Source: Hornefia butyriciproducens
GTDB taxonomy: Bacteria > Bacillota > Clostridia > Peptostreptococcales > Anaerovoracaceae
Reading direction: 5' to 3'
NCBI RefSeq assembly: GCF_009695915.1
Contig: NZ_VUMZ01000007.1
Span: 62,001-126,000, forward strand
Length of the DNA: 64,000 nucleotides
Below are positions 9,415 through 57,684 of this stretch, one piece after another. The position numbers and the translations under genes were made by a program. Numbering within the stretch: the first letter of the stretch is position 1; each line of letters opens with the position of its first letter. A model generated the notes under the pieces. It did not search any database. It had not been told where the DNA came from and saw only the letters and a program-made list of their open reading frames with translations.

Positions 9415-9443
9415 TTGACACATTTTATTCAGACAATTATAAT
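9415..9443 (+). promoter_or_regulatory. Consensus sigma-A promoter abutting structured repeat A
   Basis: TTGACA at 9415-9420 and TATAAT at 9438-9443 are separated by exactly 17 bp, a perfect housekeeping promoter pointing at the symporter gene. The expected start point near 9450 lies inside the left arm of the repeat. The mRNA leader would therefore contain almost the whole structured element. Confidence 0.85.
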
Positions 9444-9591
9444 TAGTGCATGCTTATTAAGTCCCCGTCGGACTTAACCGGCGCTGATAGCGGTTCGTCC
9501 GCAGCGCCCCGGCGCACAATCCGCGGCAAACTGTATGGCGTGCTGTGCGCCGGCATGCACTAATTGATGCATACTTTTTAAACGAGCATTA
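9441..9591 (+). repeat. Structured repeat element, copy A (first cloverleaf module plus a remnant of the second)
   Basis: Perfect 13-bp outer arms AATTAGTGCATGC (9441-9453) and GCATGCACTAATT (9553-9565) enclose three hairpins. These are TTAAGTCC/GGACTTAA, GGCGCT/AGCGCC and GGCGCACA/TGTGCGCC. Sequence after 9565 (TTGATGC to GAGCATTA) looks like the collapsed outer stem of the second module found in full copies. The outer arms differ from copy B (TAGTGTCTGCC) by paired changes that keep pairing. The element lies 27 bp before the symporter start. The region 9324-9440 otherwise holds only the promoter. Confidence 0.8.
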
Positions 9592-14028: not shown

Positions 14029-14195
14029 AAATTGCCCTTTAGTAGCTCCGCATGACGTAGGAAAAGGCTTATCTGCGGCACATAAGAACTTCCGCTTATT
14101 GCTGCTTCCTTCCGGACCTGACAAGGTTCACGGCATCCTATTGCGCAGGACCCAGACCATATCAGGCGAAGCTAATAAAAGGCAATTTCTGCACT
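14029..14195 (-). ncRNA. ffs: Signal recognition particle RNA (4.5S type, extended stem)
   Basis: The minus strand contains the SRP helix-8 signature GTCAGGTCCGGAAGGAAGCA (near 14107-14126), with the GGAA tetraloop and the asymmetric loop that Ffh binds. The ends pair over about 20 bp: ATTGCCTTTTATTAGCTTCG near 14186 against the 3' segment at 14031-14050, with only a few G-U or mismatched positions. A T-rich tail (TTTTGATTTTT) after the 3' arm suggests it doubles as a terminator. A consensus promoter lies just upstream. There is no room for a full Alu domain, so this looks like a small bacterial form of about 165 nt. It sits upstream of dnaX, as in other Firmicutes. Confidence 0.93.
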
Positions 14196-24163: not shown

Positions 24164-24793
24164 TTAGAACTTAAGAGCCCTATATGAAACTGCACCACTT
24201 ATATTTTTTACCGGTTCATCCAATCTGTCCTTACTATGCCCACAGTACTTTCTTGCTCCTTTAGAACCTCCTGTAATAATAATCGAATGGAACCATTTCC
24301 CATCACCATTTTTTAATTGAACTACGTCGCCTATTTTTGCGCCATTATGAAGCTTCGCCTTGCTCGAATAGCTCGCAGTTGCTATACCCTTATTTTTCCA
24401 GTATGTATAAAAATCACTTACACGAATAAATGATGTACTTTCCTTCCACCTATATATGTAATGATTTGTATGCCATTCTTCATAACGCACACTATACCAG
24501 TACTTTGTAGTGTCTTTCACTCCCACCGGAATTGAAGACGGTTTACTCATAGATTTGCCGCCCGCTTTTACACACTGTGAAACAAAGTTCGTGCAATCAG
24601 CGCTATGAGACTTATATTTAGAATTCCTTGATTTTGCCCATTTCTTGGCATATTTTACCGCATCCGAGTCATTATATCCATTTGGTTCTATGGATTCATT
24701 AAGAACATTATCATACTTTTCTTCTGCGGCCATTTCCTCACGAGCCTCTTCTTTGATTAAATCAATAGTTTTATCTTGCTCGTCTTTATTCAA
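24164..24793 (-). pseudogene. Secreted amidase, C-terminal catalytic part (separated by a frameshift)
   Basis: This frame encodes about 209 residues with the 'putative amidase' (Amidase_6) layout. It contains YAKKWAKSRN, the catalytic-looking cysteine in SADCTNFVSQCV, WHTNHYIYRW, and a histidine in GDGKWFHSIIITGG. The only start is a TTG within a T7 run with no ribosome site. Adding one T in that run (24792-24798) fuses it to the signal-peptide fragment upstream, giving a secreted protein of about 336 residues. It is therefore a broken gene, a phase-variable gene or a sequencing error. Codons are more AT-rich than in the flanking housekeeping genes, suggesting later acquisition. Confidence 0.8.
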
Positions 24794-38572: not shown

Positions 38573-38687
38573 GCATTGACACTATTAGGATAGCACACGG
38601 AGAAACAAAATTCAATTCCGACCGTCGCAGATCAATGAGCAATTGAACCGGAAACCCGCACATGTTATTATGATATGTATGTTTTTT

Positions 38688-38702
38688 TAATGCGTGCTCA
38701 GC
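38688..38702 (-). repeat. Relic of the structured repeat (right-end arm only)
   Basis: TAATGCGTGCTCAGC is identical to the reverse complement of the right end of the full-length repeat (GCTGAGCACGCATTA). No more of the element is recognisable next to it. It lies between divergent metG and the DUF4317 gene, 33 nt before the latter's start. Confidence 0.55.
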
Positions 38703-40720: not shown

Positions 40721-40772
40721 GTGTCAACCTGCTCCTCTGAATTCAAAATACTTTGCAAATACTCTTTCTTCT

Positions 40773-40833
40773 GCCGCGGCGCTGCCGACAGACTGCCGTC
40801 AGCACCCGCAGAACCCGCGCGGAGTTCTGCGGG
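40773..40833 (-). repeat. Relic of the structured repeat in the pflB-pflA gap
   Basis: On the minus strand CCCGCAGAAC/GTTCTGCGGG (40833-40805) forms a 10-bp hairpin in the place of hairpin 1. It is followed by a segment matching hairpin 2 of the repeat at about 32 of 35 positions (GTGCTGACGGCAG, then GTCGGCAGCGCC). The changes become G-U or compensated pairs, so the fold is kept. Either fold may slow transcription between pflB and pflA. Confidence 0.6.
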
Positions 40834-40851
40834 AGGACATTATCCGATATC

Positions 40852-45218: not shown

Positions 45219-45351
45219 TCTCTTTTTCTGTTTCCTCACTTTCTCAGTTTATCCGCCTTCAGCGGACTTCTCACATCATACCTTCTTTCAGCTATAATGT
45301 AAAATCATATTTTTTCATATATCCATACGGAAATTTTATGATACAATAATA

Positions 45352-45610
45352 TAGTGTCTGCCCATTAAGTCCCCGCCGGACTTAATGGGCGCTGACGGCA
45401 GTTTATCAGCAGCGCCGCGGCGCACCATCTAATGGAAGAAGGCGCCGGCAGACACTAATTGATGCCTGTGCTCAGGGATTCGGCCGTTTCCGAATCCCAC
45501 TGCCGCAGGGTTTTCGGATGAAACGCTTGAAAACCTTGCGGCAGGCTACCGAATATGCTCTTTGTATTATTGATATTTCAAGCATATTCGGTGGCTGAGC
45601 ACGCATTAAT
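45352..45610 (+). repeat. Structured repeat element, copy B (full two-module copy)
   Basis: A 259-bp element in the divergent yeiH-lysR gap. Module 1 has outer arms TAGTGTCTGCC (45352-45362) and GGCAGACACTA (45447-45457) closing hairpins ATTAAGTCC/GGACTTAAT, GGCGCT/AGCGCC and GGCGC/GCGCC. Module 2 has outer arms around GTGCTCAG and CTGAGCAC. They close GGGATTCGG/CCGAATCCC, CTGCCGCA/TGCGGCAG and ACCGAATATGC/GCATATTCGGT. A TACAAT box ends 4 nt before it. The right end lies 55 nt before lysR, so the lysR leader may include the element. Confidence 0.85.
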
Positions 45611-45664
45611 ATATGTATTGTCGGCATTTCGGGCACACGCCCCCTGAGGAGGAATTTCAGCATC

Positions 45665-46543
45665 ATGTTAGATTATCGGCTGCAGACCTTTCTTACGGTC
45701 TGCGAAACCCTGAACTACACCCGTGCGGCGAAAGAACTCGGACTTACGCAGCCGGCGGTGTCCCGACACATCAGGAGCCTGGAAGTGGAATACGGCGTAC
45801 CGCTCTTTGTGCACAAAAATAAACGCATCTCGCTTTCCCCTGCGGGGACTCTGCTGATGCGACACGCCCGGACGATCCGCAGCGACGGTGAACTCCTGCG
45901 TCAGCAGCTGAAGGACACGAATGCTCAGGTTCGGGAACTTCATATGGGCACCACCAAAACCATCGCCGACTTTGTCATCGGCCGCCCGATAGTTCGTTTT
46001 CTGCGCGAAAATCCCGATCTCAGACTTCATCTGTCCGTCTCCAACACAACAGAACTGCTGGAACGGATCCGTCAGGGCACGCTGGATGTGGCACTGGTCG
46101 AAGGGCACTTTGACTCCGGGGAATTCGATTTCTGCCGGTACAGCACTGAGGAATTTATTGCGGTAGCGTCAGCGAAGCATGCTTTTGCACACGAACCGCT
46201 GAATCTCCGTGAGGTTCTGAATGAACCTCTGCTGATCCGGGAACCGGGCTCGGGCACGAGGGATATTCTTGAGAAAAACCTCGCCGCAGCGGAGCTGAAC
46301 ATCGGCGATTTCAGGCGGTGCGTTGAAATCGGAAGTATGCACATCATCCTGCAGCTGCTGGAGGCGGATATGGGAATCTCCTTTATGTACCGCGCGGCCG
46401 CAGCAGAGGCACTGTCACGGGGAAGTCTGCGACAGCTCCGACTGTGCGATTTCCGGGTGAAGCATGATTTCAGTTTCGTATGGAACAAAGGAAGCCTTTT
46501 CGCGGATACGTTTCGCAAAATCTGCCGGGAACTGCGAGAGTAG
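45665..46543 (+). CDS. LysR family transcriptional regulator
   Basis: A 292-residue regulator with an N-terminal winged HTH (MLDYRLQTFLTVCETLNYTR, then QPAVSRHIRSLEVEYGVPLF) and a periplasmic-binding-like effector domain from about residue 90. The start follows GAGGAGGAATTTCAGCATC. It is divergent from the YeiH exporter, and LysR partners of YeiH usually activate it. The effector is unknown. Its leader contains the complete structured repeat B, so an RNA element may add control. A two-way terminator follows at 46570. Confidence 0.94.
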   Translation: MLDYRLQTFLTVCETLNYTRAAKELGLTQPAVSRHIRSLEVEYGVPLFVHKNKRISLSPAGTLLMRHARTIRSDGELLRQQLKDTNAQVRELHMGTTKTIADFVIGRPIVRFLRENPDLRLHLSVSNTTELLERIRQGTLDVALVEGHFDSGEFDFCRYSTEEFIAVASAKHAFAHEPLNLREVLNEPLLIREPGSGTRDILEKNLAAAELNIGDFRRCVEIGSMHIILQLLEADMGISFMYRAAAAEALSRGSLRQLRLCDFRVKHDFSFVWNKGSLFADTFRKICRELRE

Positions 46544-54443: not shown

Positions 54444-54743
54444 TTATTCGAAAATCCTCGTAATATCCTGATACCGATTGATTACTCGATAAATCTCAAC
54501 ATACTCTTTACTTGCCTTGTAGATAATCACATAATCTTCCCATATCGCATATTTATAATCTGTCCTGAAACTGACTCGTTTTGAAAGATCTGATCCCATT
54601 CCCGGAAGCATCTGGAGATTTTCAAATTTACCGTAAATTTCCTTTATAGTCTTTGCCGCATATTCCTCATTGTCTTCAGCAATATAATCCCGAATATTCT
54701 TCAGTTCCTTTGCAACAATCGGGTTAATCCGCAGTTTTAACAT
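54444..54743 (-). CDS. RelE/ParE family toxin
   Basis: Toxin of a type II toxin-antitoxin pair; RelE members cut ribosome-bound mRNA and ParE members inhibit gyrase. The start at 54743 (MLKLRINPIVAKELKNIRDY, 99 aa) follows GGGAGAATAAG. Typical features are the early INPIVAKELKNIRDYI helix, the GSDLSKRV stretch, and the C-terminal VIIYKASKEYVEIYRVINRYQD strand with its conserved Arg. The antitoxin stop lies just before it (TAAGATG), giving coupling. RelE or ParE mode cannot be told apart. Confidence 0.88.
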   Translation of the reverse strand: MLKLRINPIVAKELKNIRDYIAEDNEEYAAKTIKEIYGKFENLQMLPGMGSDLSKRVSFRTDYKYAIWEDYVIIYKASKEYVEIYRVINRYQDITRIFE

Positions 54744-54744
54744 C

Positions 54745-54993
54745 TTATTCTCCCACAAGTGCCTTCAATTCATCCAAATTCAGCCATCCTTCACCGTCTT
54801 TCACTGCTTCTTCGGCTTCCTGCAGCTTCATCAAAAGCTTTTTTTCTGCACGATCACGCTCATAATCTTCAAAATCCATAACCACAAAACGCCCTCTGCC
54901 GTTCTTGGTAAGATATACAGGTTCACCTTTGCGACAGTTTTTCAGGACTTCATTATAATTTCTCAAATCAGATACCGGTAAAATACTCGCCAT
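54745..54993 (-). CDS. Phd/YefM family antitoxin
   Basis: An 82-residue antitoxin. The Phd/YefM fold is at the N-terminus (ILPVSDLRNYNEVLKNCRKGEPVYLTKNGRGRFVVMD), with a variable toxin-binding tail (EEAVKDGEGWLNLDELKALVGE). AAGGAAGGAGCTG gives a good ribosome site. It precedes the toxin by 1-2 nt. Repeat F lies 43 bp upstream, so the element sits where antitoxin autoregulation would act. Confidence 0.9.
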   Translation of the reverse strand: MASILPVSDLRNYNEVLKNCRKGEPVYLTKNGRGRFVVMDFEDYERDRAEKKLLMKLQEAEEAVKDGEGWLNLDELKALVGE

Positions 54994-55035: not shown

Positions 55036-55199
55036 TTGATGCGTGCTCAGCTACCGAATATGTTTGAAATATCAATAGTACAAAGAGCATATTTGGTAGC
55101 CTGCCGGCGCATCCTTCCATTGGATGGTCACCGCAGCGCTGTTGACAAACTGTCGTCAACGCTCGTTAAGTCCGACGAGGATTTAATGAGCAGACACTA
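55036..55199 (-). repeat. Structured repeat element, copy F (internal deletion)
   Basis: On the minus strand the element begins TAGTGTCTGC (55199) and ends GCTGAGCACGCATC (55036), pointing at the antitoxin. Module 1 keeps hairpins 1-3 in altered form, then jumps at a shared GGCAG to hairpin 6 of module 2; hairpins 4 and 5 are missing. Hairpin 2 has GTTGAC/GTCAAC and AGC/GCT where copy D has GCTGAC/GTCAGC and GGC/GCC, two compensated pairs. A TATAAT box lies just before the left end. Confidence 0.8.
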
Positions 55200-55213
55200 C
55201 TTATATTATACAC

Positions 55214-55977: not shown

Positions 55978-56135
55978 TCAATGTACAAACATTGCCTGAA
56001 AAGCTCCGACAAAAGCTTACAAGGTTTTGTGCTCATGCAACGAGAGTACGAACCCTTTTTTGTGAACAGGTACAAATCAGAACAGTATTTTTTCCTCTGT
56101 CCGCTTGTTATCTTTCCGCGTCGTGCTATTATAAT

Positions 56136-56398
56136 TAGTATCTGCTCATTAAGTCCCCGTTGGACTTAATGGGCGCTGACGGCAGTTTATCAGCAGCGCC
56201 GCGGCGCACAATCTATCCAACGGTAGTGTGCGCCGGCAGACACTACTTGATGCCTGTGCTCAGGGATTCGGCCGTTTCCGAATCCCGCTGCCGCAGGAGT
56301 TTCGGATGAATCGCTTGAAAACCTTGCGGCAGGCTACCGAATATGCTCTTTGTATTATTGATATTTCAAGCATATTCGATAGCTGAGCACGCATTAAT
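56136..56398 (+). repeat. Structured repeat element, copy C (first of tandem array)
   Basis: Full 263-bp two-module copy, starting TAGTATCTGC. It follows TATAAT at 56130-56135. It differs from copy D at two positions only (CCGTTGG for CCGTCGG, and TTTATCAGC for TTTGTCAGC). The stretch 55978-56135 before it holds no gene. Confidence 0.85.
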
Positions 56399-56661
56399 TA
56401 GTATCTGCTCATTAAGTCCCCGTCGGACTTAATGGGCGCTGACGGCAGTTTGTCAGCAGCGCCGCGGCGCACAATCTATCCAACGGTAGTGTGCGCCGGC
56501 AGACACTACTTGATGCCTGTGCTCAGGGATTCGGCCGTTTCCGAATCCCGCTGCCGCAGGAGTTTCGGATGAATCGCTTGAAAACCTTGCGGCAGGCTAC
56601 CGAATATGCTCTTTGTATTATTGATATTTCAAGCATATTCGATAGCTGAGCACGCATTAAT
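56399..56661 (+). repeat. Structured repeat element, copy D (second of tandem array)
   Basis: Unit of 263 bp. Module 1 arms TAGTATCTGC (56399-56408) and GCAGACACTA (56499-56508) close three hairpins; one of ten arm pairs is A-C. Module 2 has hairpins GGGATTCGG/CCGAATCCC (56526-56549), CTGCCGCA/TGCGGCAG (56551-56595) and GCTACCGAATATGC/GCATATTCGATAGC (56596-56646), closed by GTGCTCAG/CTGAGCAC. The two modules follow each other like two cloverleaves. Confidence 0.85.
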
Positions 56662-56762
56662 TAGTATCTGCTCATTAAGTCCCCGTCGGACTTAATGGGC
56701 GCTGACGGCAGTTTGTCAGCAGCGCCGCGGCGCACGATCCGACGGCTGAACGCGCATTAATA
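56662..56762 (+). repeat. Structured repeat element, copy E (truncated third unit)
   Basis: Matches copy D for its first ~83 bases through hairpin 2 and the start of hairpin 3. It then jumps to a degenerate right end (GGCTGAACGCGCATTAAT). It lacks module 2 and ends 21 bp before the racemase start codon. Confidence 0.8.
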
Positions 56763-56782
56763 TATAAGGAGTGTGAATAAAT

Positions 56783-57499
56783 ATGAACAGGAAAATTGGC
56801 GTAATCGGCGGCATGGGACCCATGGCCAGTCAACTTTTTTATAAGATGGTCACGGAGAAAACGGTTGCGGACAGAGACCAGGATCACGTCCCGATGATGA
56901 TTCTGAGCGACCCCCAGATGCCGGACCGCACGCAGGCGATTCTCAGCGGGAAGACAGATGAGGTCACAGCGCGTCTCCTTGAGGACGCACGGACGCTGGA
57001 AAACTGCGGCTGCGACGCCATCGCGATCACCTGCAACACGGCTCATTACTTTGCGGACAAAATCGCCGGCGAACTGCGTATTCCGATCATCCATATGATC
57101 CGGGAGACTGCCGAAGAAACTGCAAAGGAGGCGGCAGCAACAGGAAACCGCAGGGTCGCCATACTTGCCACGGACGGAACCATCCGAACCGGACTTTACC
57201 AGAAGGCGCTGGAAGCGCAGGGACTTGAGCCTTTTGTTCCCGGCCCCGAAGGTCAGGCGCTGGTCATGCATGAGATTTACGACTGTGTCAAGGCGGGTCT
57301 TCCATACGATCGGGAGGCCTGGACGGACATCCACAGAGAACTGACCGGGCACGGATGCGGGCGGGCGCTTCTGGCCTGCACGGAGCTTTCCGTCATCGGC
57401 AGCGACAACGACCTTGGCGATATGTATAAAGACCCGCTGGAGGTTCTGGCGCGCCGCGTCATTGAATTTTCCGGTCACAAAGTAAAACCGGATCGGTAA
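56783..57499 (+). CDS. Aspartate/glutamate racemase family protein
   Basis: Cofactor-independent amino-acid racemase of the Asp/Glu/hydantoin family, 238 residues. The N-terminal loop is IGVIGGMGPMASQLFY (5-20). The two catalytic cysteines are in ITCNTAHYF (about 76) and LLACTELSVIG (about 196), as in aspartate racemases. TATAAGGAG precedes the start. It sits directly after the tandem structured repeats and before an amino-acid permease and a RocB-like peptidase, so a role in amino-acid turnover is likely. Substrate (Asp or Glu) is not resolved. Confidence 0.9.
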   Translation: MNRKIGVIGGMGPMASQLFYKMVTEKTVADRDQDHVPMMILSDPQMPDRTQAILSGKTDEVTARLLEDARTLENCGCDAIAITCNTAHYFADKIAGELRIPIIHMIRETAEETAKEAAATGNRRVAILATDGTIRTGLYQKALEAQGLEPFVPGPEGQALVMHEIYDCVKAGLPYDREAWTDIHRELTGHGCGRALLACTELSVIGSDNDLGDMYKDPLEVLARRVIEFSGHKVKPDR

Positions 57500-57555
57500 T
57501 GCCGATGTGACACCTGCTGATTTCGCCGCTCCGGCTCACCGGCGAGCTCGCGGAG

Positions 57556-57684
57556 CAGTCTGTGTACGACCGGCACGGCAGCCACGGTATGTCGGCGCGC
57601 TCGCGAGCCAGACCGGGCACAATAGACGCGGCATATCGGTGCGCTTGCGGAACAGTCTGTGTACGACCGGCACGGCAGCCACGG
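57556..57684. repeat. 32-bp direct repeat, 97 bp apart, between racemase and permease
   Basis: CAGTCTGTGTACGACCGGCA begins two identical 32-bp copies at 57556-57587 and 57653-57684, both preceded by GCGGA. The sequence between them is a diverged remainder, so a 97-bp duplication is likely. The gap 57500-57760 holds no gene. Confidence 0.75.

Follow-up and report, generated by a model that had tools for sequence, protein, structure and literature searches.

What kind of sequence is the dispersed, hairpin-rich repeat at positions 45352–45610 of the window (the whole 64,000-nucleotide stretch that was analysed, part of the 2.44-Mb, 28-contig genome G000)? The first-pass annotation described it as two successive cloverleaf-like modules whose structure seemed to be under selection, and suggested that it may belong to a new class of structured RNA or be a mobile element of palindromic type. 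The window holds six clear copies and one decayed copy of the repeat, which lie among the following features.

9444–9562, plus strand: copy A, module 1 only, with TATAAT at 9438–9443.
38687–38700 (G000:C26:100687–100700), minus strand: isolated right-end 14-mer, TGAGCACGCATTAA.
40725–40842, minus strand: decayed copy, a weak module-1 match of 41 bits.
45348–45352, plus strand: left flank AATAT of the copy in question, the left copy of its target duplication.
45353–45606 (overall 45352–45610), plus strand: full element, AGTG...GCAT, the copy in question; absent from the orthologous site in the sister genome G007.
~45352–45457 and ~45459–45609, plus strand: module 1 and module 2 of the copy in question.
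45607–45612, plus strand: right flank TAATAT, the right copy of the target duplication; six letters match the left flank.
45665–46543, plus strand: LysR-type regulator gene, downstream of the copy in question and in the same orientation.
~55036–55200, minus strand: short form, in which the module-1 hairpins run straight into the final hairpin of module 2.
56130–56135, plus strand: TATAAT adjoining the left end of a tandem array.
56136–56398, plus strand: full element, first head-to-tail tandem copy (263-bp unit).
56399–56661, plus strand: full element, second copy of the tandem, with 99% identity to its predecessor.
56662–56767, plus strand: module-1 remnant closing the tandem; in G007 the locus consists of a remnant of this kind alone.
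56783–57499, plus strand: Asp/Glu racemase family gene, downstream of the tandem and in the same orientation.

In G000 and G007, the length of a full copy from AGTG to GCAT is mostly ~254–258 bp, with module 1 (TAGTG...CACTA, ~106 nt) followed by module 2 (TTGATGC...GCATTAA, ~151 nt). The element has no coding capacity and is too short for a transposase. Folding of the full copies gave two successive outer stems with three hairpins inside each, in agreement with the plan proposed earlier for 45352–45610 and both full tandem copies, and the partial copies were also as described (module 1 alone at 9444–9562, the tandem remnant and the short minus-strand copy). The paired changes reported in the first-pass annotation are present in the sequence: TAGTGCATGC/GCATGCACTA at 9444 versus TAGTGTCTGC/GCAGACACTA at 45352 in the outer stem, and GTTGAC/GTCAAC in the minus-strand copy versus GCTGAC/GTCAGC in the tandem copies in hairpin 2. 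For the copy in question, the RNA fold reaches −144.5 kcal/mol (z −14.3) and the DNA fold −82.5 kcal/mol (z −13.0), with 0 of 200 shuffles as good in either case. The existence of the repeat is confirmed, and so stable a fold is far from what chance would give. Near these copies, we also observed a ParE-family toxin-like gene at 54444–54758, which lies downstream of the minus-strand short copy at a distance of a few hundred bases, and a 56-base direct repeat of 88% identity at 57532–57684, with a spacing of 97 bases.

The repeat is restricted to a few related genomes. A covariance-model search of relatives, as had been suggested, located module 1 in 4 of the 17 genus genomes (59 matches in G000, 66 in G007, 2 in G005 and 5 in G012), with zero matches in the remaining 13. 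The module-2 model matched in 3 of 99 genomes, with at least 31 matches each in G000 and G007; these counts are lower bounds because as many matches were returned as candidates were scored. Of 296 family genomes, five contain the exact right-end 14-mer: G000, G007, G005, G201, which belongs to another genus and has it 15 times, and G327, which has it once, with the 320 bases shown there lacking a left end. In named genomes, a pattern scan found nine stretches in all, two in [Eubacterium] minutum ATCC 700079, a species assigned to Anaerovoracaceae by NCBI, and seven in the Clostridia MAG SRR1206671_bin.26. Plasmids and phages gave no element match by blastn, and viral contigs contained no element by one exact pattern. 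As the first-pass annotation had supposed, no named RNA family accounts for the repeat: in Rfam, only SRP RNA reached gathering level in the 64-kb window, and five element loci gave only one chance-level miRNA match (E 0.055). A bacterial small SRP RNA gene lies at 14058–14157 on the minus strand. Among the open-licence papers listed by our literature searches, we recognised neither this repeat family nor a MITE that targets −10 boxes.

Direct evidence for mobility comes from empty sites. At the locus in question, G007 reads GATACAATGGTATATG, whereas G000 reads GATACAATAATA, the element, and TAATATATG. Three more empty sites were found in the sister genome, with overlaps TAATTT (L006), TAATA (L004) and TAATT (L040), and a fourth further site (L003) is too diverged to read. 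The empty site of the G007 copy L040, which is L243 in G000 (C12, near 79146–79362), reads TAATTAGTGTCTTTTT and includes the initial heptamer of the element's left end, which may be chance or an excision trace. The left and right flanking 5-mers are identical in 14 of 32 loci (permutation mean 3.6, with 0 of 20,000 permutations as high), and the duplication is imperfect in the other 18. Lengths of 4, 5 and 6 bases each fit some copies, with L001 and L006 matching over 6, and the TAA next to the left end is conserved. A 5-base duplication as the sole model was rejected, as the 4 bases after T seen in relatives (below) fit most copies too. The two ends, left AGTGTCTGCTCA and right (reversed) ATGCGTGCTCA, are similar, imperfectly, over ~12 bases. 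In the flank of L031 (G007:C1, near 24172–24426), we noted that the element lies in the middle of a different palindrome, AACAGGTTTTGTGGGTTAATAATTAACC..., which for its part recurs at several places in G007 and G000.

Orthologous loci further show how copies decay. The minus-strand short copy is full-length at its G007 counterpart and was shortened in G000 by ~95 bases between GGCAG repeats, and copy A lacks module 2 in G000, while its G007 counterpart still has it. Module 1 alone was considered as the ancestral unit and rejected, because the orthologous locus shows that module 2 was lost by deletion. Mini copies of ~26–48 bp also occur, and short and mini copies keep both ends. Together, these data support the conclusion that the element is mobile DNA. 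No autonomous element with both full modules emerged, as there was no left–right pair around a transposase among the matches listed. Between the right end at 38687 and the decayed match ending at 40842, the genes resemble a pyruvate formate-lyase activase.

The element often lies at core promoters. After removal of orthologues from 90 readable loci, 78 left flanks remained, and a perfect TATAAT abuts the left end in 23 of them (ending from four bases before to one base after it), compared with 0.2% of the 624 windows that served as controls. In the sequence preceding the 23 boxes, TTG is in excess at −35 spacings of 17 and 18, with 5, 4 and 1 occurrences at 17, 18 and 16, and 0–2 at each other spacing; at 16–18 it accompanies 10 of the 23 element-bearing boxes versus 7 of 33 element-free TATAAT boxes in the window. 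Among all TAAT sites of the window, 37 of 344 are TATAAT. The sequence to the right looks coding on the element strand at 58 of 108 loci, a set that includes orthologues, on the other strand at 19, and is uncallable at 31. The element is therefore often found between a promoter and a gene, perhaps because it prefers the sequence, because insertion is coupled to open promoters, or because insertions there do no harm and survive. At the orthologous locus L157/L173, immediately after the module remnant, we observed TTAGCACTC...GAGTGCTAA, presumably a perfect-looking CIRCE operator.

Pairing is maintained between lineages. In G005, G201 and G012, module-1 hairpins 2 and 3 differ in sequence with the plan unchanged, as judged by separate folds alone, these hairpins being unalignable across lineages. 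In module 1, where the covariation set comprised the outer stem and hairpin 1 alone of 22 hand-picked sequences, pairing holds in 92.4% of cells versus 83.6% when shuffled and 24–36% when slid, and both sides have changed in 12 of 20 pairs; further pair types are not above shuffles (19 vs 18.3). In module 2 (15 hand-picked sequences), 86.3% of cells pair versus 79.7% when shuffled and 33–44% when slid, with both sides changed in 24 of 60 pairs; the pairing figures for either module are not probabilities, because the shuffles do not keep relatedness. The covariation supports structure being under selection between lineages, judging from these alignments, and template switching at palindromes can be another source of paired changes. 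Several G201 copies (L239, L233 and L237) share an extra stretch of ~90–100 bases inside module 2, which is perhaps a nested element.

Selection on the sense RNA would be expected to leave G-U more often than A-C after one-sided changes. In full G000 and G007 copies, we counted 20 G-U versus 35 A-C cells in module 1 (25 rows) and 18 versus 26 in module 2 (23 rows); both counts leave out pairs with a G-U consensus, which are included in the raw module-2 ratio of 67:21 (136:60 with the fuller structure). Across 22 G000/G007 orthologue pairs, there were 36 G-U, 60 A-C and 8 compensated changes. The opposite lean was seen in module-1 matches aligned to the model, with G-U:A-C ratios of 200:161 (108 sequences) and 128:96 (44 degenerate sequences), in an alignment fitted to the structure. 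Stems changed less than loops in the orthologue pairs (10.1% vs 18.4%), and L008 and L035 carry a reversed hairpin-1 core, which is consistent with a DNA-level event. Broken pairs in the sister genomes are not biased to G-U, and the resident copies show little sign of an RNA signature.

These comparisons bear on the proposal of a new structured RNA class, in which the cloverleaf would be a 5′-leader regulator, selected as RNA at each gene and spread by duplication. Such a regulator would suit the very stable fold, the covariation, the frequent position between a promoter and a co-oriented gene, the slower change of stems and the G-U lean of the model-fitted module-1 copies, but G-U is not above A-C in full copies or orthologue pairs, hairpins and whole modules are lost at orthologous loci, the flanks of most copies carry an insertion signature, the small number of downstream genes inspected in the window are functionally unrelated, and Rfam offers no match. 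We therefore regard an RNA class as very unlikely. The earlier claim that structure is under selection thus stands between lineages, where covariation favours it, but finds no support in the G-U:A-C ratios of the resident copies. Of the two identities proposed for the repeat, the mobile element is favoured by the empty sites, the target duplications and an insertion sequence with a common end, whereas a new working RNA is not.

This insertion sequence of 1,628 bp (G007:C1:862085–863712) was found via the left end AGTGNCTGCTCA and has AGTGTCTGCTCA at both ends. AGTGTCTGCTCA is the usual left end of the element, and the identity with the decayed insertion sequence extends over 12 bases. Its open transposase pieces match the IS5-family model NF033578 with 263.8 and 38.1 bits (whole-protein cut-off 275), and relatives of the transposase carry an IS5-family annotation. 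An additional DUF772 match in one piece led us to consider IS1182 as the partner, which was rejected, as the NCBIfam match is to IS5. The first 110–126 bases of the insertion sequence recur twice in G000 at ~85% identity, with TAAAT before each. No intact transposase with AGTGTCTGCTCA ends was seen. In G000 (L267:358–1950; C27, 73857–75449), an open 530-aa IS1634-family transposase adjoins a copy of the IS5-family insertion-sequence end.

The ends of relatives are AGTGTCTGCTGATTAAGT on both sides in L278, AGTGTCTGCT in L281, AGTGAATGCTCA and AGTGACTGCTCA in L279, AGTCTCTCCTCA in a Ruminococcus albus plasmid, AATGTCTACTGA and AATGTCTGCTGA in an Enterococcus lactis plasmid, and AATGCCTACTGA in a Tetragenococcus halophilus plasmid. 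In five of the seven insertion sequences compared, the duplication is 4 bases long (ACTT, ATTT, AATT, ATTT and ATTT) and follows a T; a target duplication is absent in L279 and in the broken G007 copy. The usual T-AATT to the left of the element and GCATT-AATT to its right fit this rule of 4 bases after T. The right end of the element resembles the end of the insertion sequence only in part. Classical IS5 makes a 4-bp duplication at the target YTAR, and the element agrees with it in length only. On the basis of the common end, the target and the relatives, an IS5-family transposase is the likely mover.

A MITE moved by some other DDE transposase, of Tn3 or IS1634 type, was weighed against the IS5-family enzyme. 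Tn3 is known for five-base duplications and TA-rich targets, which those of the element recall, and an IS1634-family transposase stands beside one insertion-sequence-end copy in G000; yet DDE_Tnp_Tn3 is present in 0 of the 17 genus genomes, which rejects the Tn3 transposase, and it is the IS5-family relatives that have related ends and the same target type, leaving another DDE mover quite improbable. Movement by a Y1 (HUH) transposase in single-stranded form, as for a REP/BIME-like element, is scarcely credible, for although the dispersed palindromes with kept pairing and the conserved TAA beside the left end recall such an element, Y1_Tnp numbers 0 in G000, G007 and G012, which rejects it as the mover, and 2 each in G005 and G010 among the 17 genus genomes, G010 has no element, and target duplications exist.

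We thus consider it probable that the element is a non-autonomous, MITE-like transposon inserted at TA-rich targets by an IS5-family transposase acting in trans. The enzyme would act on the left end AGTGTCTGCTCATTAAG and the imperfect right end TGAGCACGCAT, and insertion, usually at TAANN, would produce the 4–5-bp (sometimes 6-bp) duplications observed. At about three in ten loci the apparent target is a perfect TATAAT, and a −35-like TTG stands at the proper distance from ~10 of these 23 boxes. The promoter to the left would thereby be preserved, and the element would form the hairpin-rich 5′ leader of the next gene, a position that is seen directly, with transcription presumed. The flanking TAATT would itself be a good target, which may give rise to head-to-tail arrays. 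Resident copies then decay by deletion of hairpins or whole modules, as at the two orthologous loci above, and the cloverleaf plan is kept in spreading lineages, where folded DNA may help transposition; alternatively, hairpin template switching may keep the palindromes perfect. A stronger version, which we judge rather unlikely, is that the DNA must fold as two cloverleaves to move and that the transposase targets promoters opened by RNA polymerase, placing insertions between promoter and gene; the kept pairing would then reflect selection on single-stranded or cruciform DNA, not on RNA.

Covariation is usually taken as proof of a functional RNA, and here it occurs in mobile DNA whose resident copies show little RNA-strand selection, which calls for caution in RNA discovery from covariation. 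Landing at −10 boxes would parallel, in bacteria, the way in which some yeast retrotransposons target promoter-proximal 'safe havens', and would give many mRNAs a strongly structured 5′ end simultaneously. The related copies in the culture-collection strain [Eubacterium] minutum ATCC 700079 make both points testable.

A MITE moved by an insertion sequence is an already known kind of element; what is unusual here is the two-cloverleaf plan, the replacement of hairpins with pairing kept, and the landing at −10 boxes. With IS5-family insertion sequences (NF033578), the element has in common the left end AGTGTCTGCTCA, T-ANTT targets and a short duplication, but it is gene-less and six times shorter, with another right end and a two-cloverleaf interior. 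REP, BIME and REPIN sequences are likewise dispersed extragenic palindromes with kept pairing; the element differs from them in that its main hosts are without a Y1 transposase and target duplications are present. Finally, bacterial MITEs such as Correia/NEMIS, ERIC and RUP, as described in the Delihas review (PMC2229807), resemble the element in being small, non-coding and intergenic, with target duplications and transcripts that would be highly base-paired, and the table in that review gives elements of ~100–200 bp with long stem-loops. Compared with the MITEs described there, the element is distinguished by two three-hairpin modules, by hairpins replaced between lineages, and by a left end that often lies at TATAAT.
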